From assembly GCA_022560615.1 (NCBI GenBank), contig JADFSR010000030.1, positions 1 through 54,102 on the forward strand: 54,102 nucleotides of DNA. The letters are read 5' to 3'. Within the stretch, counting starts at the first letter, position 1; each line of letters starts with the position of its first letter. The DNA is from Gemmatimonadota bacterium (GTDB taxonomy: Bacteria; Gemmatimonadota; Gemmatimonadetes; Longimicrobiales; Gaopeijiaceae). The position numbers were made by a program, and so were the translations under genes. The notes beneath the pieces are model-generated. The model had not been told where the DNA came from and searched no databases. It was given only the letters and a program-made list of their open reading frames with translations. This document shows positions 13,029 to 23,372 of this stretch, one piece after another.

Positions 13029-13997
13029 ATGCGGTTCAGGCTCACGATCGGAATGGCGACTCTGGCACTCGTGGTCGGTCCGGTTTCCGGATACGCGCAG
13101 AGCGCGGAGCGGCTCAACCGGATGATCACCCTGCACCAGCAGAGCAAACCGGTGTTCGGGCTCTACGCGCCACGAGCGCGCACGGGACGCGGACGGGGCG
13201 GGGGGGCCGCCCCCACGGGCCCGGCGAAGACGCCCACGGAGCTCGCGAGCGAAACGCTTGCGTACGCCTCGAGCGATTTTGTCTTTGACGGGTCGATGGA
13301 GAGGGGTGTGGACCAGGCGCTCTCCGCATTCACGGGTTTCGTCGGCGCGATGCGGGCCGCTGGCGCCACCACGCGCTCGAACCCGCTCGTCGTAAAGATG
13401 CAGGAGATCGGCACCAACTATGACGGCGCACGAGAGGCGATCGCCAAGCAGCTCGACGCGGGCGTGAGCACGATCATGTTCGTGGGCGTCGAAAGCGCGG
13501 AGGAAGTCCGGCAAGGCCTCGCCGCGATGCGCTTCGCCTCGAACGGAGGGACTCGACCGGATCCGGTCGGTCAGGCACCTGCCTACTGGGGGGTGAGCGA
13601 AGCCGAGTATCGCCAGAAGGCCGACCTGTGGCCGCTGAACCCCGACGGCGAGCTGCTCAACTGGACGATCGTCGAGAGCCACGAGGGCCTGGAGCACGTC
13701 CGCGAGATCGCCGCCGTTGAAGGGATCGGTGTGCTCTGGCCCGGAGCCGGCACATTACGCGGGCTCTTCTCGACCACCGACGCCGCCGGTGAGCGGGTGC
13801 TCGACGCCGAAGGCTGGGAGAACGCGATCCAGACCGTCCTGGCCGCGTGTAAAGAATTCGACGTACTCTGCGGCTACCCAGCCAACGCGAGCGATATCGA
13901 GATGCGTATGGAGCAGGGCTTCAGCGTCTTCGTGATGGGTTGGGGTGAGGCAGGCTTCGCGACGGTCGATCTCGGGCGGAGGCTTTCCGGCCGATAG
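13029..13997 (+). CDS. secreted HpcH/HpaI aldolase-like protein
   Basis: A 322-residue protein. The ATG at 13029 lies just after GGGAGGA and opens a signal peptide ending GYAQ-SA. A Gly/Arg-rich linker (RTGRGRGGG) follows near residue 50. The rest is the TIM-barrel class II aldolase fold of HpcH/HpaI: YDGAREAIAKQLDAGVSTIMFVGVES is the segment that carries a metal-binding glutamate in the family, followed by the AMRFASNGG loop. A signal peptide is odd for a family that normally cleaves cytosolic acyl-carboxylates. Substrate unknown. Its TAG stop (13995-13997) is immediately followed in the same frame by the integrase reading frame. Confidence 0.75.
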   Translation: MRFRLTIGMATLALVVGPVSGYAQSAERLNRMITLHQQSKPVFGLYAPRARTGRGRGGGAAPTGPAKTPTELASETLAYASSDFVFDGSMERGVDQALSAFTGFVGAMRAAGATTRSNPLVVKMQEIGTNYDGAREAIAKQLDAGVSTIMFVGVESAEEVRQGLAAMRFASNGGTRPDPVGQAPAYWGVSEAEYRQKADLWPLNPDGELLNWTIVESHEGLEHVREIAAVEGIGVLWPGAGTLRGLFSTTDAAGERVLDAEGWENAIQTVLAACKEFDVLCGYPANASDIEMRMEQGFSVFVMGWGEAGFATVDLGRRLSGR

Positions 13998-14078
13998 GTA
14001 AGGTCAGACAGACCTCGGGGTGAGTCAGGGAAGGCGCTAGGGCGTAGGCATCTGAGCAAGCGCACTGAGAAAACGTAT

Positions 14079-15005
14079 GTGCGGTGGATTCGCCGCTACA
14101 TGTCCTATCACGGCAGGACAGATCCCGCGGCGATGGGTAGCGAGGAGATCGACCAGTTCTTGTCCTACTTGGCCGAAGACCTCGAGCTGGGCGCCGACTC
14201 ACAGAACCAGGCTGCGTCATCGATCGCGTTCCTGTACAGAGAGCTTTACGGGCGGGATTTGGCCGCGCGCGGTGGCATCACCCGGGCTAAGGAGCCCCAC
14301 GTACTGCCCAGGTACGCACCCCCGGGGGACGTCGATCGTTTTCTGGCGGAGTTGCGAGGGCTGCCGCTCCTCGCGTCGATGATCATCTACGGCGCGGGGC
14401 CTCGGGTGAGCGAGGTCGTGGACATCCGTGTGAAGGACCTGAACCTGACACACAGGGAGTTGATGATCCGAGCGGGAAAGGGACAAAAAGATCGGATCAC
14501 CGTTCTCCCGGACGCCGCCATCAGCTCAATCAGAGACCAGATCGAAGCCGTCGCCGACCAGCATGCGCTCGATCTGGAGGCCGGGCACGGCTGGGCCCAC
14601 CTTCCGGGCGCCTTGCATCGGAAGGATCCCGAGGCCGGGTGGGATCTGGCATGGCAGTTCCTCCTTCCTTCCACGAAGCTCACCAAGGACGAAAAGACGA
14701 ATCGATGGGGAAGGCGCCCCATCCACATCACGAGTATCCAACGCCCGATCAAGACCGCCTGGCGTCGGTCGGGCGTGGCTACTCCGATCACCGCGCACGT
14801 GCTCCGCCACTGCTTCGCTACTGAGATGGTTCGCACCGGTTGTGACGTGCGTACGCTTCAGCAGCTCATGGGTCACAACGATATCCGCACGACGATGCGG
14901 TATCTCCACTTCCTGCACCGACCCGGCCTGAACATCGAGAGCCCATTCGACCGACTCCCAAGCCAGCAGAGAAAACGGCTCGAGGGCGGATTGTCAGGTG
15001 GATGA
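14079..15005 (+). CDS. intI: integron integrase (IntI-type tyrosine recombinase), start uncertain
   Basis: Site-specific recombinase that moves gene cassettes between attC and attI. Counting from the GTG at 14079, Arg109 (GAGPRVSE), Lys134/137 (GKGQKDR), His240 and Arg243 (HVLRH), His266 (LMGHND) and nucleophile Tyr275 (MRYLH) complete the active site. HLPGALHRKDPEAGW followed by LAWQFLLPST at about 174-198 is the extra segment that separates IntI from Xer and phage integrases and contacts the extrahelical bases of attC. Similarity runs upstream of 14079 (HLSKRTEKTYV, from about 14049), yet no ATG, GTG or TTG lies in frame before 14079. A CTG at 14052 is possible. Either the first 10-15 residues were lost or the start is unusual. 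Confidence 0.85.
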   Translation: MRWIRRYMSYHGRTDPAAMGSEEIDQFLSYLAEDLELGADSQNQAASSIAFLYRELYGRDLAARGGITRAKEPHVLPRYAPPGDVDRFLAELRGLPLLASMIIYGAGPRVSEVVDIRVKDLNLTHRELMIRAGKGQKDRITVLPDAAISSIRDQIEAVADQHALDLEAGHGWAHLPGALHRKDPEAGWDLAWQFLLPSTKLTKDEKTNRWGRRPIHITSIQRPIKTAWRRSGVATPITAHVLRHCFATEMVRTGCDVRTLQQLMGHNDIRTTMRYLHFLHRPGLNIESPFDRLPSQQRKRLEGGLSGG

Positions 15006-15138
15006 CCTTGCAACCCAATCGATTATCGCCGCCCCAGCCCCGTACCGAACGTCAGCACAGGCGCGGCTCCCCCGGACCCAGTTGCGCTCGAGCCGCCATA
15101 TCTCCCATCCTGAAGCACAGGACGCAATCCAATCATTA

Positions 15139-15145
15139 GTTAGGT
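15139..15145 (+). other. GTTAGGT recombination-core candidate (attI or cassette boundary)
   Basis: This heptamer fits the GTTRRRY core of integron recombination sites. It lies 133 bases after the integrase stop and 44 bases before the lipoprotein start, exactly where attI would be if cassettes lie downstream of intI. Only the core is visible; no attC-type fold surrounds it. A seven-base match alone is weak. Confidence 0.35.
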
Positions 15146-15188
15146 GGCCCTGGTAACGATCACCACGAGCTTGTCCGCAGAGACCATC

Positions 15189-16361
15189 ATGCCCAAGTCG
15201 ATCAGTGCTCCTCGTGTCCTTCTGGCCCTGATCGCGCTCCATGCGTGTACGACGGGGGCCATCCAGGATGGCGACGTGGGTCCTGGCGAGCCCGGTCGCT
15301 TGGTCATCATTGGAGGCGCGCTCCAAGCGGACAACGCGACCGTGTACCAGGCCATTGTGGAGGCTCGGGCGGGGGGCGGCCCGCTATGCGTGGTTCCGAC
15401 TGCCAGCTCTGACCCCGAAGAGTCGATGGCCGGTGCGGTGCAGAGGTTGGCTGAGTACGCCGGAGTTGGTTCGGTAAAGGGTATCCTCATTTCGACTGAG
15501 GACCCCGCTCGGGCTCAGGATCCGTCCGTTGTCGCCGAACTGGCGGCCTGCTCCGGCTTCTACTTCACAGGCGGATCCCAAAGCCGAATCGTCGATGTAT
15601 TCCTTCCGGCGGGGGATACCACGGAGGCGTATCGCGCGGTAAAGCAGCGGTGGCTGGAGGGTGCTGTTGTCGCGGGCTCCAGCGCCGGGGCGGCCATGAT
15701 GAGCCGTGTGATGATCTCCGGCGGGAGCTCTGCTGAGGCCGTTTCCGACGGGGTCGCGGCTGATCAGGACGCTGACGGTGTCCAGATCCGCCAAGGCATG
15801 GGTTTCTTCGAGCCGTTGCTGGACCAGCATTTCCTGGCGCGAGGCCGGATCGGGCGACTCCTCATTTCTGTCATCCAGACGGACTTGCCCCAGGTCGGGT
15901 TCGGGATCGACGAGAACACGGCTCTCATCGTTGAGGGCGACTCCGCGGTAGTTGTCGGCGCTTCCGGCGTCATTGTGGTTGACGGCCGCACGGCGAGGCG
16001 GACCGCAGCGCACCGCGCGTCGGAGTTGACGGTGAGTCTGGCTGGGGCGGGGGATGTCATCGACCTGCGGACACTTGAGATAAGGGTGCGAAGCGACAAG
16101 AGGGCGGTGCCCATTGTTGACGCGTCCGTTGAGCTGCCTGAAGACCCGTTTGCACGATGGGCCTTCCTTCATTTGGTGGCGGGACTGGCTCGCAGCTCGG
16201 CTCGGGAGGCCACCTTCGACTTGTCGGACGCGACTCTACGGGTCGTCAAAGATGCTGGCTTCTCCGCGTCCATGGTGGAGTCCACCGGTGGGGTCGAGAT
16301 GACTCCGATGGGCCTGTCGGCGGGGCCCTTCAGAGTGGACCTGCTGCCATCGGGTTCTTGA
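15189..16361 (+). CDS. cyanophycinase-like (peptidase S51) lipoprotein
   Basis: A 390-residue protein. The ATG at 15189 opens a lipoprotein signal with lipobox LHAC (Cys20). RLVIIGGAL and the nucleophile elbow VAGSSAGAAMM with Ser165 mark the class I glutamine-amidotransferase-like S51 fold of cyanophycinase, which cleaves beta-Asp-Arg dipeptides from cyanophycin. GGSQSRIVDVF and QHFLARGRIGRL also fit the family. A surface location argues for use of external polymer or peptides. It is the first gene after the integrase and the GTTAGGT core, so it may sit in a cassette, but its length is large for one and no attC is seen behind it. Confidence 0.8.
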   Translation: MPKSISAPRVLLALIALHACTTGAIQDGDVGPGEPGRLVIIGGALQADNATVYQAIVEARAGGGPLCVVPTASSDPEESMAGAVQRLAEYAGVGSVKGILISTEDPARAQDPSVVAELAACSGFYFTGGSQSRIVDVFLPAGDTTEAYRAVKQRWLEGAVVAGSSAGAAMMSRVMISGGSSAEAVSDGVAADQDADGVQIRQGMGFFEPLLDQHFLARGRIGRLLISVIQTDLPQVGFGIDENTALIVEGDSAVVVGASGVIVVDGRTARRTAAHRASELTVSLAGAGDVIDLRTLEIRVRSDKRAVPIVDASVELPEDPFARWAFLHLVAGLARSSAREATFDLSDATLRVVKDAGFSASMVESTGGVEMTPMGLSAGPFRVDLLPSGS

Positions 16362-16559: not shown

Positions 16560-17180
16560 GTGCTTCGCTCGCTCCGTTACCCCCAGGAGTTTCGGGGACA
16601 TGAGGACCCTCGGTCTGTGCCCAGGCTCATGTTTCCCTCCCGAGGTTCTGCCTCAACACTGGCCGCCTTTGCTCCGCTGGGTCCGGGTGCCGAACCCGTT
16701 CCCCACCATCATCGCTCGTATGCAGCCATCCGACTCCCCATGCCGCGTCAGCATGCCTCCGGTCTGCCCTCGGCTATGCCTTACCAGTCGCGCAAGCGTT
16801 GGTTCTGTGCGCCACGACTCTCGTCGTGAGGCCGGCCGTCGGTCCGCTTGCAGCCGACGGCGCGTCGGAGTGGGTCACCGGTTCTCCGTCGCCCGGATCC
16901 TACGACTGGACGGTCAGGGGTCTCCCAGGTTACCGGGCCGTCTTCTTCGGCCGTGCCACAGTCGTCCACCCCGCCGGTCCCCCTTCGGCTCGCCTTTAAC
17001 GCCTCCGGGGATGCTGCTTTCATGGTTGCTGAGCCCCTGAGCATCCGGGATGAGCATTTCGAGGCTGCATATCCTGCGGCCCAACTCGCTCGCCTGACTA
17101 CGCATCAACCGCCCCCTTACGGAGACGACTGCAAGTCTAGCTACCAGCCTGCTGGCTATGCTTTGACTGGGTGGGGATCG
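16560..17180 (-). other. unexplained structured region, possibly the 5' part of a group II intron
   Basis: No reading frame here looks like protein. Read on the minus strand it begins near 17178 with GTGCG, the usual first bases of bacterial group II introns. Stretches such as CTGGTAGCTAGACTTGCAG and CCGTAAGG follow, resembling domain I of such introns. Near the left end is an ATG whose few codons could be the start of a maturase before the sequence breaks off. It directly abuts the cut end of an IS110 transposase fragment. The identification rests on memory of intron sequence style, not on an alignment. A non-coding, bridge-RNA-bearing end of an IS110 element is the main alternative. Confidence 0.3.
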
Positions 17181-17206: not shown

Positions 17207-17569
17207 TCAGTCTACATCCGCTGACCTCCTCTCCGACCGGCATTGCCTGGTCGCTTCCAGCAATCGCTCCGACAGATGGTCGGCATCAATCCGGTCCCCC
17301 TTGTTGCCCGATCGCTTCTCGCCTCTCAGGTCGCACACGATCACCCGGCCCACCCGAGGACGCAGCAGGTCGTACAGCCACTGTGCCTGCGTGCCCTCTT
17401 CGAACGCTACGTGCACCGTCCCGGCCAGCGCGTCGAAGAACTCTGTGATCGAGCGCTCGCTCGTCTCGATCACGCTGCGCGCGATCACCCGCCCTCCTTC
17501 CGTCCGCACCGTCACCGCTGTCATTGCCTGATGTACGTCGAGCCCAACATACTTGTTGTTCCGTTTCAT
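17207..17569 (-). pseudogene. IS110-family transposase, N-terminal fragment
   Basis: About 120 residues of the RuvC-like DEDD domain remain: YVGLDVHQ (first Asp), VAFEEGTQAQWLYDLL (Glu), VCDLRG and GDRIDADHLSERL (last two Asp). After this the frame reads unrelated residues and stops, so the remainder of the catalytic domain and the whole C-terminal serine-recombinase-like domain (more than 200 residues) are absent. The ATG at 17569 was chosen from the family start (a few polar residues before YVGLD). The sequence upstream of the gene reaches a GTTAGAA core at 17646. IS110/IS1111 elements are known to enter attC sites, so the position may not be accidental. Confidence 0.75.
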
Positions 17570-17645
17570 GAGAGCCGCCCTCTGTTTCGGTCCATGGTCG
17601 TTTCGTAACTCCACGGTACCCACAGGGGGCGTGCTTTCAAGTTGT

Positions 17646-17652
17646 GTTAGAA
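17646..17652 (+). other. attC-type core GTTAGAA, left edge of the Phd/ParE unit
   Basis: Identical to the 3' core of the complete attC at 20600-20606, including the following AAG. The rest of an attC is not present on its left, where IS110 sequence lies. It is proposed as a cassette boundary whose attC was replaced by the insertion. Confidence 0.4.
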
Positions 17653-17687
17653 AGAGCTGGAGCTGTCCGGGCCGTACAACATGTGTA

Positions 17688-17724: not shown

Positions 17725-18006
17725 ATGTCGAGTCTAAGGCCGAGTCAAGATATTCAGCCCCTGTCCGCCTTCCGGGCGAATGCTGCCGGCTTCCTGAAAA
17801 GTGTCCGCGAGTCGCAACGACCGCTCATTCTTACTCAGCACGGGAAAAGTGCTGCGGTCGTTCTCGATGTCGAGCACTACGAAGCCCTTATCGAGGAGCT
17901 GGAGGTGATCCGGGATATCAGGCAGGCGCGGGCGGAGCTCGAAAGCGGCGAGGGGATTCCTCACGAGACGGCGATGGCAGAACTCCGGGCAAGAGTCAGT
18001 CTTTGA
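17725..18006 (+). CDS. Phd/YefM-family antitoxin
   Basis: A 93-residue antitoxin. The ATG at 17725 follows AGAGGAGCC, a good ribosome-binding site. The sequence has the Phd/YefM signature: IQPLSAFRANAAGFLKSVRESQRPLILTQHGK is the conserved N-terminal DNA-binding block, followed by AAVVLDVEHYEALIEELEVI. The charged C-terminal part (AELESGEGIPHETAMAELRAR) is the usual toxin-wrapping segment. Its stop overlaps the region of the toxin start, so the two are translationally coupled. It should neutralise the downstream toxin and repress the operon. It lies in the integron region, bounded on the left by a GTTAGAA core. Confidence 0.9.
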   Translation: MSSLRPSQDIQPLSAFRANAAGFLKSVRESQRPLILTQHGKSAAVVLDVEHYEALIEELEVIRDIRQARAELESGEGIPHETAMAELRARVSL

Positions 18007-18007
18007 A

Positions 18008-18313
18008 TTGAAGGTTGTCTGGTCGCCGCTTGCTCTACGCCGGGCCGCCGACATCGTCGATTTCATCGGGAAGGACCGTCCGCAAGGTGCGCTGGACTGG
18101 ATCGAGGGGCTCGAAGAGCGCTTGACGGCGCTCCCTGGGTTGCCGGAGCAGGGCCGCGTCGTGCCCGAATGGTACGAGCGGACGGTTCGTGAGCTGATCT
18201 ACCACCGGCATCGCGTCATCTACGAGGTCCACCAAGACCATGTGGAAATCCTCACCATCCGCCACAGTCGGGCAGCAGCTTGGCGAATTGGGGGACGAGT
18301 AATCGGGCGGTGA
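18008..18313 (+). CDS. ParE/RelE-family toxin
   Basis: A 101-residue toxin. It starts with TTG at 18008, one base after the antitoxin stop; the residues KVVWSPLALRRAADIVDFI then match the usual opening of the family, so the rare start is credible and would keep toxin yield below antitoxin. EQGRVVPEW, ELIYHRHRVIYEV and VEILTIRHSRA are the other ParE/RelE blocks. ParE members poison DNA gyrase and RelE members cut mRNA on the ribosome; the sequence alone does not decide. The reading frame looks intact. An IS481-type terminus begins about 10 bases after its stop. Confidence 0.85.
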   Translation: MKVVWSPLALRRAADIVDFIGKDRPQGALDWIEGLEERLTALPGLPEQGRVVPEWYERTVRELIYHRHRVIYEVHQDHVEILTIRHSRAAAWRIGGRVIGR

Positions 18314-18359: not shown

Positions 18360-18513
18360 GTTCTCGTTCTAAGCTGCTTGTGTAATTATTTAGTTTTACC
18401 TCCTGGCCAGGGAGTCCGCAGCGCGAAGCGCGGAGGAACCCCGAAGGGGAGCGAGCCCCTCGAGGGTAGCGGTTTTGCGAGTGTGCTGAAGCGGCGGGGA
18501 GGTCACGCGGTTC

Positions 18514-18722
18514 TCAGCACCGAGGGTTTCGAGACGAGTGGCCGTCATGATCGAGGATGGCCGGTTCGCGGACGTGAAGCCAGCCGAGCGAGACGGGGCC
18601 GAAGTAGACGGCCCAGATGTCGTTGTCGATCTGCTCGAGCCCGATGTACTCACCGCCGAGCAGATGGGAGACGTTGACCCATTCGGAGTGCCATCGGATG
18701 CCTCCGTTGGTGGAGACCTCCC
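18514..18722 (-). pseudogene. IS481-like (DDE) transposase, C-terminal fragment
   Basis: About 65 residues remain. STNGGIRWHSEWVNVSHLL, then EYIGLEQIDNDIWAVYFGPVS and LGWLH are the beta-barrel tail found after the catalytic core of IS481-type integrases (pattern GLEx(I/V)DDGIWxVYFGPxxLG). No DDE core is present; the upstream part was replaced by the IS110 relic that begins at 18727. Together with the terminus at 18324 it marks an older IS481 insertion, later interrupted. Confidence 0.65.
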
Positions 18723-18726
18723 GTGC

Positions 18727-19360
18727 TCACGTGCGTGCATAGAAGCGTTCGATATCGAAGTCCTCGCTGTTCTTGAGCATGAAGTAGGTGGCACGACCGA
18801 GGCGTGCGGCGAGAACACTGAGCGCTTTCCCTTTGCCGTGGCGGCGCTCGAGCTTCTTGAGATGAGCCTGGCCGCGGGTGTTGTCCTTGAGGAAGAGCAC
18901 GGCGGCCTCGCTGAAGGCCTATTTGCGATGGGCGTTACCGATCTTGGCTGCCGACGCCGGAGCAGATCGCGCGTCGCGCGCATGTCACGCGGATAGACGC
19001 AGGCCAGAGGGAACGCACCACCACGCAGCAGCACCGCCGTCTTGTGGGAGTCGATCTTGTCGTTCTTGGCCTTGGCACTGTGGATCGCTTTCATGTAGAG
19101 CGCGTGACCGAGCACGAAGGCGATCCCCTCACGGGCACAGAGATCGGCGAGCCAATACCAGCAGAAGATGCACTCGCTGCCCATGACGAGATCCGAACGG
19201 TAGGGCTCAAGCGCGCGAAGCAAGGCCTCGGGCTCACAGCGCAGCCTTTTGTGCAGACGCACTTCGCCTTGGGAATCCAAGACGCACAGGTAGAGCGTGC
19301 GAGCATGAAGGTCGATGCCACAGTAGTATAGATGCTGGCCCTTGAATTGAAGAAACGCAT
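18727..19360 (-). pseudogene. IS110-family transposase relic (frameshifted, internal deletion, nonsense codon)
   Basis: From the ATG at 19360 the frame MRFFNS must shift by one base to reach YYCGIDLHARTLYLCVLDS, then GSECIFCWYWLADLC, AFVLGHALYMKAIH, KNDKIDSHKTAVLLRGG and MRATRDLLRRR, the DEDD N-terminal domain. It then jumps directly to IGNAHRK-stop-AFSEAAVLFLKDN, where the family has a Trp (TGG became TAG). It ends HGKGKALSVLAARLGRATYFML, the family C-terminus. Roughly 130 central residues are missing. The non-coding stretch upstream (19360-19480) contains a strong hairpin (CCTCTCG paired with CGAGAGG); in active IS110 elements that region encodes the bridge RNA. Confidence 0.8.
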
Positions 19361-19497
19361 GGTTCCCCTCCTGGGAAAGATGGATTGAGCTTGCGCTCTG
19401 ATCCTTCCGCCCTCTCGGCGAGAGGTCCAGGAGGGGGCCTGCATGAGTATCAAGCGATTGCTACAGTCGCGGTGGAGCGTCGCGGCTCGCGATCTGC

Positions 19498-19540
19498 GTC
19501 GGCATCGTGGTCCCGCAGCAGAATTCCAAAGACGTTAGAG
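19498..19540 (+). repeat. attC site, 3' half only (left boundary of the HicAB cassette)
   Basis: The 42 bases at 19498-19539 equal 20564-20605, the 3' half of the complete attC, at all positions but one, and end in the core GTTAGAG. The complementary 5' arm is absent. Upstream is IS110 non-coding sequence and a short CGGCTCGCGAT-CTGC stretch like another attC arm. The insertion or deletion that created this junction probably destroyed the site. Confidence 0.7.
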
Positions 19541-19570
19541 AGCGGCTCGTCCACCAATAGGATCAGGCGA

Positions 19571-20122
19571 TCAGCGAGCCTTGGTAGCCGGCTTCCGGCT
19601 TGCTGATGTTTTCGCCTTACGCGCTCTAGCCGTCGCTGACGCAGCCTTGGCCGGTGCCTTCGCTGCCGCCGCTTTCGCCGCCCGCGGCTTCGGGACCTTC
19701 CGCCGAGGGGCAGGAGACTTGGACTTCGTTGAGCTGGCTCCCTTGGACTTCGTCTTTCTAGAGTCGTCGAGCACCAAGACCTCAGCCGCTCGGTCTATGG
19801 CTGATAATCCAGACTCCAGCAGTCCACCGATCCACTCATTCATGGAGAGTCCTGCCGCTGCGGCCGCCGCCGCGATCTGTCGATGTGTGGTGGGGCCGAC
19901 CCTCACGTTGAATCGTCCCGAGAACGGCTTCTCCGGCTTCTCGCCCCGGATCTTGCACACCTCGAGGTATTGATCCACAGCGCGACGCATCGACTCGGAT
20001 AGCTCCTCTACAGACTCGCCTTCGAAATAGAGCTCGTCGCGTAGATCCACTACGTGTCCGGCGAACAGCGCGAGTTCCGCGTCGAACTCGAACACACCTG
20101 TATACCCCTGATATTCAATCAT
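19571..20122 (-). CDS. hicB: HicB-family antitoxin with a long Ala/Lys-rich tail
   Basis: A 183-residue antitoxin. Residues 1-60 are the HicB partial RNase H fold (YQGYTGVFEFDAELALFAGHV, YFEGESVEELSESMRRAVDQYLE). Residues 70-115 form the DNA-binding domain (GRFNVRVGPTTHRQIAAAAAAAGLSMNEWI). The last 60 or so residues are a low-complexity Lys/Ala/Pro/Ser tail (AAKAAAAKAPAKAASATARA) resembling a histone H1 C-terminus, which ordinary HicB proteins of 110-150 residues lack. It is encoded 63 bases after hicA on the same strand, against the direction of the attC site. It should bind HicA and the palindrome upstream of hicA. Confidence 0.85.
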   Translation of the reverse strand: MIEYQGYTGVFEFDAELALFAGHVVDLRDELYFEGESVEELSESMRRAVDQYLEVCKIRGEKPEKPFSGRFNVRVGPTTHRQIAAAAAAAGLSMNEWIGGLLESGLSAIDRAAEVLVLDDSRKTKSKGASSTKSKSPAPRRKVPKPRAAKAAAAKAPAKAASATARARKAKTSASRKPATKAR

Positions 20123-20185
20123 TATGACGCGCCTCCCTTTCGGTTCTAGCCGAAGTCCGCGTACCGATGAAGCGCTCGACTTCCC

Positions 20186-20428
20186 TCATAGCCGACCCGC
20201 TGCGTCCAAAAAAGACCGAAGGCGCTTCACCAACCCCTTTCCACACTCTCGCCGTGAATGGGGCCGATCCACGGTGAGTTTTCGTTCCCCGATGACGAAA
20301 GTGACTGTCGACCCTGAACCTTCATACACCTCCGCTTCCAAGTGCTTGAGGAGGGCCTCTGCCTTCTTCCAATCCAGACCGCCATTCAGGCGCCGAATCT
20401 GTTCGACGGTCTTATCGTGCTTCCCCAT
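20186..20428 (-). CDS. hicA: HicA-family toxin
   Basis: An 80-residue toxin. The start at 20428 gives MGKHDKTVEQIRRLNGGLDWKKAEALLKHLEAEV, then GSTVTFVIGERKLTVDRPHSRRECGKGLVKRLRSFLDAAG. This is the HicA branch with a D/HRPHP-type motif. The usual GS-H catalytic His near residue 40 is replaced here (EGSGSTV), as in that branch, so the His in DRPHS may matter instead. HicA proteins are dsRBD-fold mRNA interferases. The longer upstream frame only translates the attC site. The hicA-hicB order is the common one, and the pair forms one cassette transcribed towards the integrase. Confidence 0.85.
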   Translation of the reverse strand: MGKHDKTVEQIRRLNGGLDWKKAEALLKHLEAEVYEGSGSTVTFVIGERKLTVDRPHSRRECGKGLVKRLRSFLDAAGRL

Positions 20429-20456
20429 GGTGTCATATGATGGCGCCACCCGGAAC

Positions 20457-20479
20457 GTGGTGTCAACATGTGACACCAC
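20457..20479. promoter_or_regulatory. perfect palindromic operator of hicAB
   Basis: GTGGTGTCA and TGACACCAC are perfectly complementary nine-base arms around a five-base centre. The site lies 29 bases upstream of the hicA start and 12 bases from the attC edge. HicB-type antitoxins repress their operon from such palindromes, so this cassette carries its own promoter and operator. Confidence 0.75.
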
Positions 20480-20490
20480 GGGCCGCTGCT

Positions 20491-20606
20491 CTCTAACACG
20501 GAATTGCTGCTGTCCGGGTAGGCTGCTGGGTCTGAAGCACCCGCCTTGCAACTCGCGTCTCAGGTCGGCATCGTGGTCCGGCAGCAGAATTCCAAAGACG
20601 TTAGAA
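20491..20606 (+). repeat. complete attC-like recombination site (HicAB cassette)
   Basis: A 116-base imperfect palindrome with attC architecture. The outer R stem is CTAAC (20493-20497) with GTTAG (20600-20604). An unpaired spacer follows (two bases on one side, six on the other). The L stem then pairs GGAATT with AATTCC, CTGCTG with CAGCAG and CCGG with CCGG. Two bases, G506 and T513 (20506, 20513), have no partner and would be extrahelical, the marks by which IntI recognises the folded bottom strand. The loop between arms is about 60 bases. Recombination would cut after G20600. It shares sequence with the partial sites at 19498, 21107 and 23295. Confidence 0.85.
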
Positions 20607-21005: not shown

Positions 21006-21020
21006 GACTCCTCGGCGGAA

Positions 21021-21091
21021 GAGCCGAGTGGTGGAAATCTCCTCGCTCGGTTCTGGGAGGGCCCAGGTGGGCAACCACCCGGGCTACTCGA
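21021..21091 (+). ncRNA. group II intron domains V and VI
   Basis: Bases 21021-21054 fold as a 34-nucleotide domain V: GAGCCGAG pairs with CTCGGTTC with the characteristic G-U near the AGC catalytic triad, and a GGAAAT loop caps the top. A second hairpin (GGTGG with CCACC) follows as domain VI, and CTACTCGAC ends the intron near 21091. The spacing from the maturase stop is as in intact introns. Without domains I-III it cannot splice by itself. Confidence 0.75.
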
Positions 21092-21106
21092 CCAGTCGCG
21101 GAAGGA

Positions 21107-21203
21107 GTTAGTGGGTCTGAATGTTAGTGGGTCCGAAGCACTCGCCTTGCGGCTCGCACTTCGGATCGGCATGCTGGCCGCGCAGCATCGCGAGCCGTTA
21201 TGA
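21107..21203 (+). repeat. partial attC site with a 16-base tandem duplication
   Basis: The central and 3' parts align with the complete attC: TGGGTCCGAAGCACTCGCC and CTTGCGGCTCGC, then TCGGCAT, then a 3' arm ending in GTTATGA (21197-21203). The matching 5' arm is missing and the group II intron end lies there instead. The 16 bases from GTTAGTGGGTC are duplicated in tandem (21107-21122 and 21123-21138). Internal pairing CGGCTCGC with GCGAGCCG and ATGCTG with CAGCAT gives an alternative shorter hairpin. Confidence 0.6.
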
Positions 21204-21215
21204 AGCCCGGTCTGA

Positions 21216-21629
21216 CTACGCGATGAGGGCAAGCAGTTCGGGTGGGGTGACGGTCTTCACCGGGGACTTCTTGAAGCCTCTCTTATCGCGTGTGACGAGA
21301 TAGTCAGCCTCGGCCTTCTCGGCGCACGCCGCCTGAGCCGCATCCTCGAAGTCCGTCCAGTCCAGAGCCAGAGCATGGCGAATGCGGTCTTCGTCCACGG
21401 GCACTACTCGGACCACATGGAGCAGATCCGTGAGGACTCTCCGGGCCTTCGCTTTCCCCATGTGCTTCGAGAGGAGAAAGTGCAGGGTCGTGATCGTGTG
21501 GGCGGCGACCAGCCCTTCGACGGCCCGAGCCTCGACGTGCCGAAGTACGGCCTCGGCATCATCGGCGAACGGCTCTCTACTAGCCAGGACGTCGAGCACG
21601 ACGTTGATGTCGAGAAGGACCCTCGTCAC
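21216..21629 (-). CDS. PIN-domain toxin (VapC-like)
   Basis: A 137-residue toxin. Start GTG at 21629 overlaps the antitoxin stop by four bases. The PIN acidic residues are visible: LLDINVVLDVL (Asp7), TLHFLLSK with a preceding Thr/Ile strand, DWTDFEDAAQAACAEKAEADYLVTRD (Asp-x-x-Asp and the final Asp). PIN toxins are Mg2+-dependent RNases that cut tRNA or rRNA. The full domain is present and looks intact. It is transcribed against the attC direction, like hicAB. The GTTATGA core of the preceding attC lies 13 bases beyond its stop, placing the module just inside a cassette boundary. Confidence 0.85.
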   Translation of the reverse strand: MTRVLLDINVVLDVLASREPFADDAEAVLRHVEARAVEGLVAAHTITTLHFLLSKHMGKAKARRVLTDLLHVVRVVPVDEDRIRHALALDWTDFEDAAQAACAEKAEADYLVTRDKRGFKKSPVKTVTPPELLALIA

Positions 21630-21856
21630 TTGTGCTTGGCCTCAAGGTGAGCGCGGTACTCCTCCCGTGACGCAGAGGAGGGAAGGACGCCTCGAAGGCG
21701 CGTGACTACTGGAGTCGCGGTCCCCCCCTCGTCTTCAAGCGAGCCGAGAAACGAAGAGACGAGCTGGGAGACAGAAGTGTCGTTGAGTCGCGAGAAGCGC
21801 TTGGCGCGCTCAACGACGGCCGAGTCGACCGAAAGTGTGAGTTTCGTCTTAGGCAT
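21626..21856 (-). CDS. DUF6364-like antitoxin paired with the PIN toxin
   Basis: A 76-residue antitoxin. The ATG at 21856 gives MPKTKLTLSVDSAVVERAKRF, a ribbon-helix-helix start (strand KLTLSVD, helix AVVERAKRFSRLNDTSVSQLVSSFL). A short acidic and then basic tail, SREEYRAHLEAKHK, follows and should wrap the toxin. The upstream reading to 21934 is AT-rich promoter DNA. RHH proteins of this kind repress their own promoter; the repeated TATACGTAC just upstream is the expected target. The four-base overlap with the toxin indicates translational coupling. Confidence 0.8.
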   Translation of the reverse strand: MPKTKLTLSVDSAVVERAKRFSRLNDTSVSQLVSSFLGSLEDEGGTATPVVTRLRGVLPSSASREEYRAHLEAKHK

Positions 21857-21870
21857 GAGTCCGCTCCTGG

Positions 21871-21902
21871 TATACGTACTATCAATATCAATATATACGT
21901 AC
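21871..21902. promoter_or_regulatory. paired TATACGTAC sites upstream of the PIN module
   Basis: TATACGTAC occurs at 21871-21879 and 21894-21902, 23 bases apart, about two helical turns, with AT-rich DNA between. Each core is itself palindromic (TACGTA). RHH repressors bind such spaced pairs as dimers on one helix face. The local AT content against a GC-rich background also marks the promoter. Confidence 0.55.
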
Positions 21903-21934
21903 GATGGTTCTGGGAGCAATGCGGCGAACTTCAT

Positions 21935-22694
21935 AACGAGTATCAGGCCCTCGGAGTCAAAAGCGCGCAGGTTCCCCTACCCGCCGGGGCGCGGCGGTCG
22001 AAAGTAAGGCGTCGGTCGTCGTGGTCTCTGACTTCATTTCAGCAGCTGGAGCAGAGCTTGAGTCTCTGCACCAAACACATATCGAGGTTCACCCGCGGGT
22101 CCCCCTGAGGCGAGCTCGGCAGGGGCGGGAGCAGAAGCCGCGTGGGCTCCTGCGACCTAGAAATTCAACTGTGCCCTCGTACCGTCCGACTACGATTCAA
22201 GGCGAGCAGGCTCAGGGCCGTGAGGCCGGTGGCCAGTTAGCTCCGGGCTCGGGTGAGGGGCAGAGACCAAGTTCGAGCGATTGTGATGTAAGTAGGGAGC
22301 GGGAGGCGGCGTCCAATCAAGCGAAGCGGCTGCCGGGCGTCGTCCGGTGTGCGCCGCAGCTCGAGGTAGCAGTCACGGCTCGGCCAACCTCCCCTCCGTC
22401 CTCAGTGAACTCCTAGGGCGTGCTGAGTTCCCCGGAAGCGTACGGGTGCATGAGATCGCTTCGGACTTTGTCCCCGGAGTCGAGCGAGACGAGTTCGATG
22501 TCCCCTACGTCGTGCGTTTCCCCCTACATGATCCTGAACTGATCTTGCCGGGCTGAGATCTCGTCGTCCGGGTGTCGCTCCTTAAAAGCGATTGCTGTTG
22601 CTGCGGGAGAACGGGAGGGTCGCGCGCTTCGCGCTCGGCCGCCATTCTTGTCGCGCAAAAGAATCGCAGACCGTCAGGAGGCTCGAGGGAGAAA
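21935..22694. other. 760-base stretch without a recognisable gene
   Basis: TCATAAC at 21931-21937 is complementary to the preceding GTTATGA core and could be the 5' edge of a lost attC. An open frame ending at 22556 (LSELLGRAEFPGSVRVHEIASDFVPG and onward) has protein-like composition and may be the tail of a decayed gene, but I do not recognise it. At 22586-22675 GCGATT and AATCGC could close a long imperfect hairpin around GCGCGCTTCGCGC, perhaps another eroded attC. Confidence 0.35.
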
Positions 22695-23294: not shown

Positions 23295-23372
23295 CTCTCA
23301 ACACGGGTTTGCTGCTGTCCGCGTAAGCTGTGTGGGTTCGGAAGCGCTCGCCTTGCAGCTCGCGCTTCTGTC
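23295..23372 (+). repeat. attC-like site, 5' half (right end of the array)
   Basis: CTCTCAACACGG then TTTGCTGCTGTCCG, TGGGTTCGGAAGC and GCTCGCCTTGCAGCTCGCG run parallel to the 5' arm and loop of the attC at 20491. The complementary 3' arm is weak: GAAGCAG and GTTG at about 23390-23404 are all that remains. It follows the broken toroid gene, as expected for a cassette, and is the last integron-type sequence before chromosomal genes resume. Confidence 0.55.

Follow-up and report, generated by a model that had tools for sequence, protein, structure and literature searches.

The locus examined here raises the question of whether the imperfect palindrome at positions 20491-20606 is a true attC, the recombination site of an integron cassette, and whether it could still be used by an integrase. 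We analysed it within the window, the whole 54,102-nucleotide stretch of DNA in which it lies. Very probably it is an attC, belonging to a HicBA gene cassette of a sedentary chromosomal integron, and would recombine as other attCs do. Elements of this kind are well known, and the site is an ordinary example, with protruding bases and a central spacer typical of its lineage (Table 1).

Table 1. Integron features of the window, in order of position
Feature	Positions	Strand	Details
Integron integrase gene intI	14037-15005	+	TIGR02249 296 bits (cut-off 265); Pfam
attI-like stretch	14998-15144	+	Ends GTTAGG (15139-15144); near-identical copy in C44 up to GTTA
Cyanophycinase / peptidase S51 family gene, first cassette	15144-16361	+	
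Group II intron remnant (D1-D4-6)	16959-17180	-	Rfam RF02005, 120 bits
IS110-type transposase fragment	17207-17623	-	NF033542, E 9.5e-9, below cut-off
R' core, remnant of preceding attC, start of Phd/ParE cassette	17646-17652	+	GTTAGAA, from sequence
Phd/YefM-type antitoxin and ParE-type toxin cassette genes	17725-18313	+	Antitoxin 17725-18006; toxin 18008-18313
Degenerate IS110-type element, inside attC of Phd/ParE cassette (R'' side)	18396-19280	-	NF033542, E 1.3e-11, below cut-off
Interrupted attC of Phd/ParE cassette	19446-19539	+	42 bits (clade model); R' 19534-19540 starts HicBA cassette
HicBA gene cassette, 1,066 bp	19535-20600		hicB 19571-20122 (-); hicA 20186-20428 (-)
Complete attC	20491-20606	+	Anatomy, folding, covariation, covariance-model score
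attC R''	20491-20497		CTCTAAC
attC L''	20500-20517		GGAATT 20500-20505, G20506, CTGCTG 20507-20512, T20513, CCGG 20514-20517
attC variable terminal structure	20518-20577		
attC L'	20578-20593		CCGG 20578-20581, CAGCAG 20582-20587, AATTCC 20588-20593
attC spacer	20594-20599		AAAGAC
attC R'	20600-20606		GTTAGAA
Group II intron 3' remnant, abutting left side of next attC	21019-21092	+	Rfam RF00029, 42.6 bits
attC, right part only	21093-21203	+	R' GTTATGA from 21197; 19.5 bits (clade model); 93% match to C48 attC parts
PIN-domain toxin and DUF6364 antitoxin-like cassette genes	21216-21934	-	
attC with both L arms, decayed R cores	22580-22678	+	CCTTAA / GTCAGG; 58 bits (clade model)
attC, left half only, last recognisable in array	23295-23364	+	

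Structure of the site and its relatives

Every pairing listed by a sequence-only reading of the site, together with the unpaired G20506 and T20513, was present where it had been placed. Compared with the consensus RYYYAAC / GTTRRRY, the inner six bases of each R core fit and pair fully, and the outermost base deviates on both sides. Sixteen L pairs enclose the variable terminal structure, and the unpaired central spacer, narrowed by three extra pairs next to the L box, is asymmetric, with 2 nt facing 6 nt. The two unpaired bases are found on the left arm (R''-L'') only, six nucleotides apart. That reading had called for folding of both strands and for scoring with an attC covariance model, and both supported it: with DNA parameters the arms came together on each strand (-21.1 kcal/mol for the top and -22.5 kcal/mol for the bottom strand; z of -2.1 and -2.8, respectively, in comparison with dinucleotide shuffles), and the exact stem with both bases out made up approximately 0.53 of the folded ensemble of either strand.

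BLAST searches with the attC identified a full-length relative (76%) in contig C48 of its own genome, partial ones in C6, C30 and C48, and more sites in the sampled related genomes. A palindrome scan of these loci showed a common plan of YYYAAC, 2 nt, six pairs, a protruding G, six pairs, a protruding T or A, about four pairs, the terminal structure and the mirror arm. When 14 sites were aligned, 96.7% of the cells were paired and nine pairs (34 cells) had changed on both sides; among the L pairs, 8 of 16 showed such changes across the relatives. None of 500 shuffles reached any of five covariation measures, and sliding the partners by 1-3 columns lowered the pairing in the 14-site alignment to 23-42%. 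The compensatory changes among the 14 sites thus lend support to the stem.

We then scored the site with a clade covariance model trained on 13 other attCs, the window site being left out. It obtained 91 bits on the plus strand (E 2.1e-23) and only 17 bits on the minus strand, and the asymmetry that sets strand choice is thus present. With a foreign model made of Gemmatirosa and class 1 sites only, it was the best and the single clear match in the window (E 0.0024). The clade model reached the Gemmatirosa attCs (down to 1e-6) and weakly found the class 1 attCs of the cmlA5 (0.04) and dfrA15 cassettes. A search of the window against Rfam at the gathering threshold returned group II intron pieces only and no attC match, and a palindrome scan of a Pseudoalteromonas plasmid, included as an extra reference, gave no convincing attC. 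At E <= 0.01, attCs of the same type were found in 35 of the 116 sampled genomes of the family, often in dense arrays, with some genomes holding 25-32 sites. Five related sites lie in the window, and more in contigs C1, C6, C22, C44 and C48 of the same genome, those in C22, C44 and C48 including well-scoring ones. Several independent tests confirm that the site, which a reader had picked from the raw sequence, is a true attC and not a chance palindrome: its structure, its covariation, its model score, its place in a cassette array and a nearby integron integrase all agree.

A partly decayed chromosomal integron

The integron around the site is an ordinary, partly decayed chromosomal integron. 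Its intI is the sole frame in the genome above the TIGR02249 cut-off and is transcribed towards its cassettes, as in the relatives G019, G027, G030 and G045 and in Gemmatirosa, and opposite to the direction in class 1. The catalytic R, K, HxxR, H and Y of tyrosine recombinases are intact in the translation, where we take them to be the R in GPRVSE, the K in GKGQKD, HVLR, GH and the Y in MRYLHF. In a plasmid collection the best match was the integrase of Gemmatirosa kalamazoonensis at 40% identity, the nearest named integrase found (Gemmatimonadota) and only a hint; among the genome contigs searched for named relatives of the integrase, the only match was at 24%. The intI frame is open from 13998 (the preceding stop ends at 13997) and contains no ATG, GTG or TTG before GTG 14079, which falls inside the conserved first helix of IntI, a helix that is complete in the relatives; the stretch at 13995-14081 marks a possible loss of the 5' end. 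The gene may be broken, have an unusual start or reflect an assembly error, and its present-day activity is uncertain because no usual start codon lies ahead of the conserved first helix.

A putative attI adjoins intI, and the first cassette appears to be joined at its GTT. The 151 bp at 14998-15148 recur at 97% in C44, where another cassette comes next, with three attCs that share its direction, and a shorter partial copy (87%) is found in C57. The near-identity of the window and C44 extends through ATTAGTTA and then gives way to divergence, as expected if cassettes were inserted there. The sequence read around these two copies (L139:3870-4020 in G000:C44 and L140:4599-4755 in G000:C57) showed no adjoining integrase; the one in C44 stands at the head of an array with at least three attCs.

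The HicBA cassette occupies the 1,066 bp between two successive R' cores and is closed by the complete attC. Its hicA and hicB oppose the cassette direction and therefore presumably have their own promoter; a palindrome just upstream of hicA, TGGTGTCA-N5-TGACACCA at approximately 20459-20479, is a likely operator of the toxin-antitoxin operon. Searches for the whole cassette elsewhere in the sampled genomes found no copy; what matched was the attC and, weakly, the toxin-antitoxin genes. Following the PIN/DUF6364 pair, a short frame of no assigned family ends the gene list of the array. A 230-bp stretch at 22136-22365 of the window is repeated at 96%, inverted, beside another attC (L013:15166-15393, G000:C6). 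Elsewhere in the same genome, 4,448 bp of cassette array (L035:11292-15739, G000:C48) are 99.7% identical to G095:C39, and 1,193 bp are 99.9% identical to G007:C54. As these genomes are classed as different genera, the near-identical blocks reflect either recent cassette-block transfer or mis-binned metagenome contigs.

The complete site had been said to contain both arms in full, unlike its neighbours, and this was essentially right: four of the five recognisable attCs in the window are damaged, the neighbours being interrupted, truncated or decayed. The attC at 19446-19539 has no paired R core and is a mosaic, its L'' arm (GCGATTGCTACAG) and L' arm (CAGCAGAATTCC) coming from two different attC types and pairing incompletely. 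The two group II intron remnants in the array lie on opposite strands; group IIC introns insert in attCs (PMC7923331). The IS110-type fragment together with the R' core (window 17353-17655) is 97% identical in G004:C156 (L121:1-303), after which the sequences differ. The junction gggggcctgcatgagtatcAAGCGATTGC between the degenerate IS110-type element and the attC L'' arm is the same in the window (19430-19475) and in G004:C131 (L122:4840-4890); its presence in two genera suggests an attC-targeting IS110/IS1111 lineage, and targeting of attC sites is known for IS1111-type relatives (PMC11187229).

Two explanations dispense with an attC altogether. A bare R/L palindrome of equal score arose in 6 of 300 simulated 54-kb sequences with the dinucleotide content of the window; at 2%, we regarded the palindrome score as weak evidence and gave it no weight, and a chance inverted repeat gains what credit it has from this figure. 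In none of the 300 did a palindrome carry two bulges confined to the left arm and spaced 5-8 nt from each other, and homologous sites with compensatory changes, together with an E of 2e-23 for a site held out of the model, refute chance, whose probability we consider negligible. It is very improbable that the palindrome serves the neighbouring hicBA operon as terminator or operator. It adjoins the promoter end of hicA, and TGGTGTCA-N5-TGACACCA is a separate short palindrome of the kind often found at autoregulated toxin-antitoxin operators, but that operator-like palindrome lies outside the attC, and a terminator would not need the conserved bulge pattern and R cores. We dropped this reading as sites of this attC type are found in many other locations across the genome and the family.

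The remaining alternative overlaps with the reading as an attC and disputes present-day activity only: the site may be a fossil, intact by recency and no longer recombined as the integrase of the platform is broken. We consider this quite possible, if somewhat short of probable. No usual start codon precedes the conserved first helix in the IntI frame, the damage extends to four of the five recognisable attCs of the window, and intron and IS110 remnants lie within the array. On the other hand, pairing within the site is perfect, C22, C44 and C48 contain well-scoring sites of its type, the catalytic residues (R, K, HxxR, H and Y) are intact, and the missing intI start may stem from an error of assembly or from unusual initiation. 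The description of the site as functional-looking thus holds for the attC, which by analogy with other attCs looks competent for recombination, but not clearly for the platform, with its intI without the usual start codon and most neighbouring sites damaged.

If the HicBA attC works as other attCs do, the bottom strand would fold into a hairpin when the region is single-stranded, with the R and L boxes pairing and an A and a C, six nucleotides apart, protruding from the 3' arm. These bases would orient the strand for the IntI protomers, and cleavage by IntI would fall beside the R' core, in top-strand terms between G20600 and T20601. The cassette could then leave the array as an excised circle, or be integrated at attI or a further attC. 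For the strand that is used, the point of cleavage and recombination itself, we draw on studies of other attCs. Since the array is partly decayed, movement today would depend on the activity of an IntI that starts at GTG or is otherwise initiated.

Protruding bases and spacer across the lineage

The sequence-only reading had IntI enzymes recognise protruding bases in the folded bottom strand. Two such bases are indeed present, though as met by IntI they would be the complements C (from G20506) and A (from T20513) rather than the G and T noted; the arrangement is A-N6-C, the usual bases being T and G. Among 121 distinct related sites of the family, 58 are of the A-N6-C and 32 of the T-N6-C type, together 90, a tally skewed towards the seed model's geometry. 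A less biased check comes from the Gemmatirosa sites, which were mostly found without the model; T-N6-C is found in 14 of 17 of them. T-N6-G is found in 3 of 5 class 1 sites. The central spacer is 2/5 or 2/6 in 103 of the 121 related sites, and the three pairs by the L box, two of which show compensatory changes, are absent from the class 1 sites.

The extrahelical base of L'' is reported to be G in the bottom strand "almost exclusively" (PMC2727003), and by this usual criterion the C of our site deviates. We did not count that as grounds for exclusion because the change from G to C in the VCR had a small cost, with integration falling at most 2.7-fold and deletion even rising slightly (PMC2727003), and because the class 1 site of cmlA5 that we fetched also has C. 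Mutagenesis has further shown that C at the L'' protruding position raised excision by several integrases and that A-N6-C is among the types excised by some integrases (PMC3053210).

We tentatively propose, as a possibility we hold to be real but not the probable case, a family-wide shift of the attC code, in which the strand-selecting base is C instead of G, the second base is A or T, the L stem is longer by three conserved, covarying pairs that narrow the spacer to 2/5-6, and IntI has co-adapted. If this is true, the lineage would offer a natural experiment on the reading of attC structure by integrases. It has well-populated integrons whose attCs naturally bear the A/T-N6-C bases found by mutagenesis to favour excision by several integrases, so that a natural comparison could address why G is the base in most known attCs.

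Comparison with known systems

The site shares with the class 1 attCs (aadA, blaGES, cmlA5) the R''-L''-L'-R' order, the YYYAAC/GTTRRR cores and protruding bases on the L'' arm, the first of them 8 nt after AAC and the two six nucleotides apart. It differs in the identity of these bases, which are commonly T and G in class 1 but A and C in its own bottom strand, and in the spacer, which is unpaired over 5/6 in class 1 and over 2/6, with three further L-box pairs, here. The Vibrio cholerae VCR (PMC2727003) follows the same logic of folded-strand recognition and has a partly paired central spacer, but with three protruding bases (G16, T20 and T24) as compared with two in our site. The chromosomal integrons of Treponema (PMC3607928), although of a different lineage, likewise have an integrase transcribed towards the cassettes. 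In the identity of its protruding bases the site corresponds to attCdfrA1 and the A-N6-C and T-N6-C mutants (Larouche and Roy 2011, PMC3053210), among which the engineered A-N6-C was excised efficiently by IntI2*179E and SonIntIA; what was engineered in that study is a natural and common type in the present lineage.
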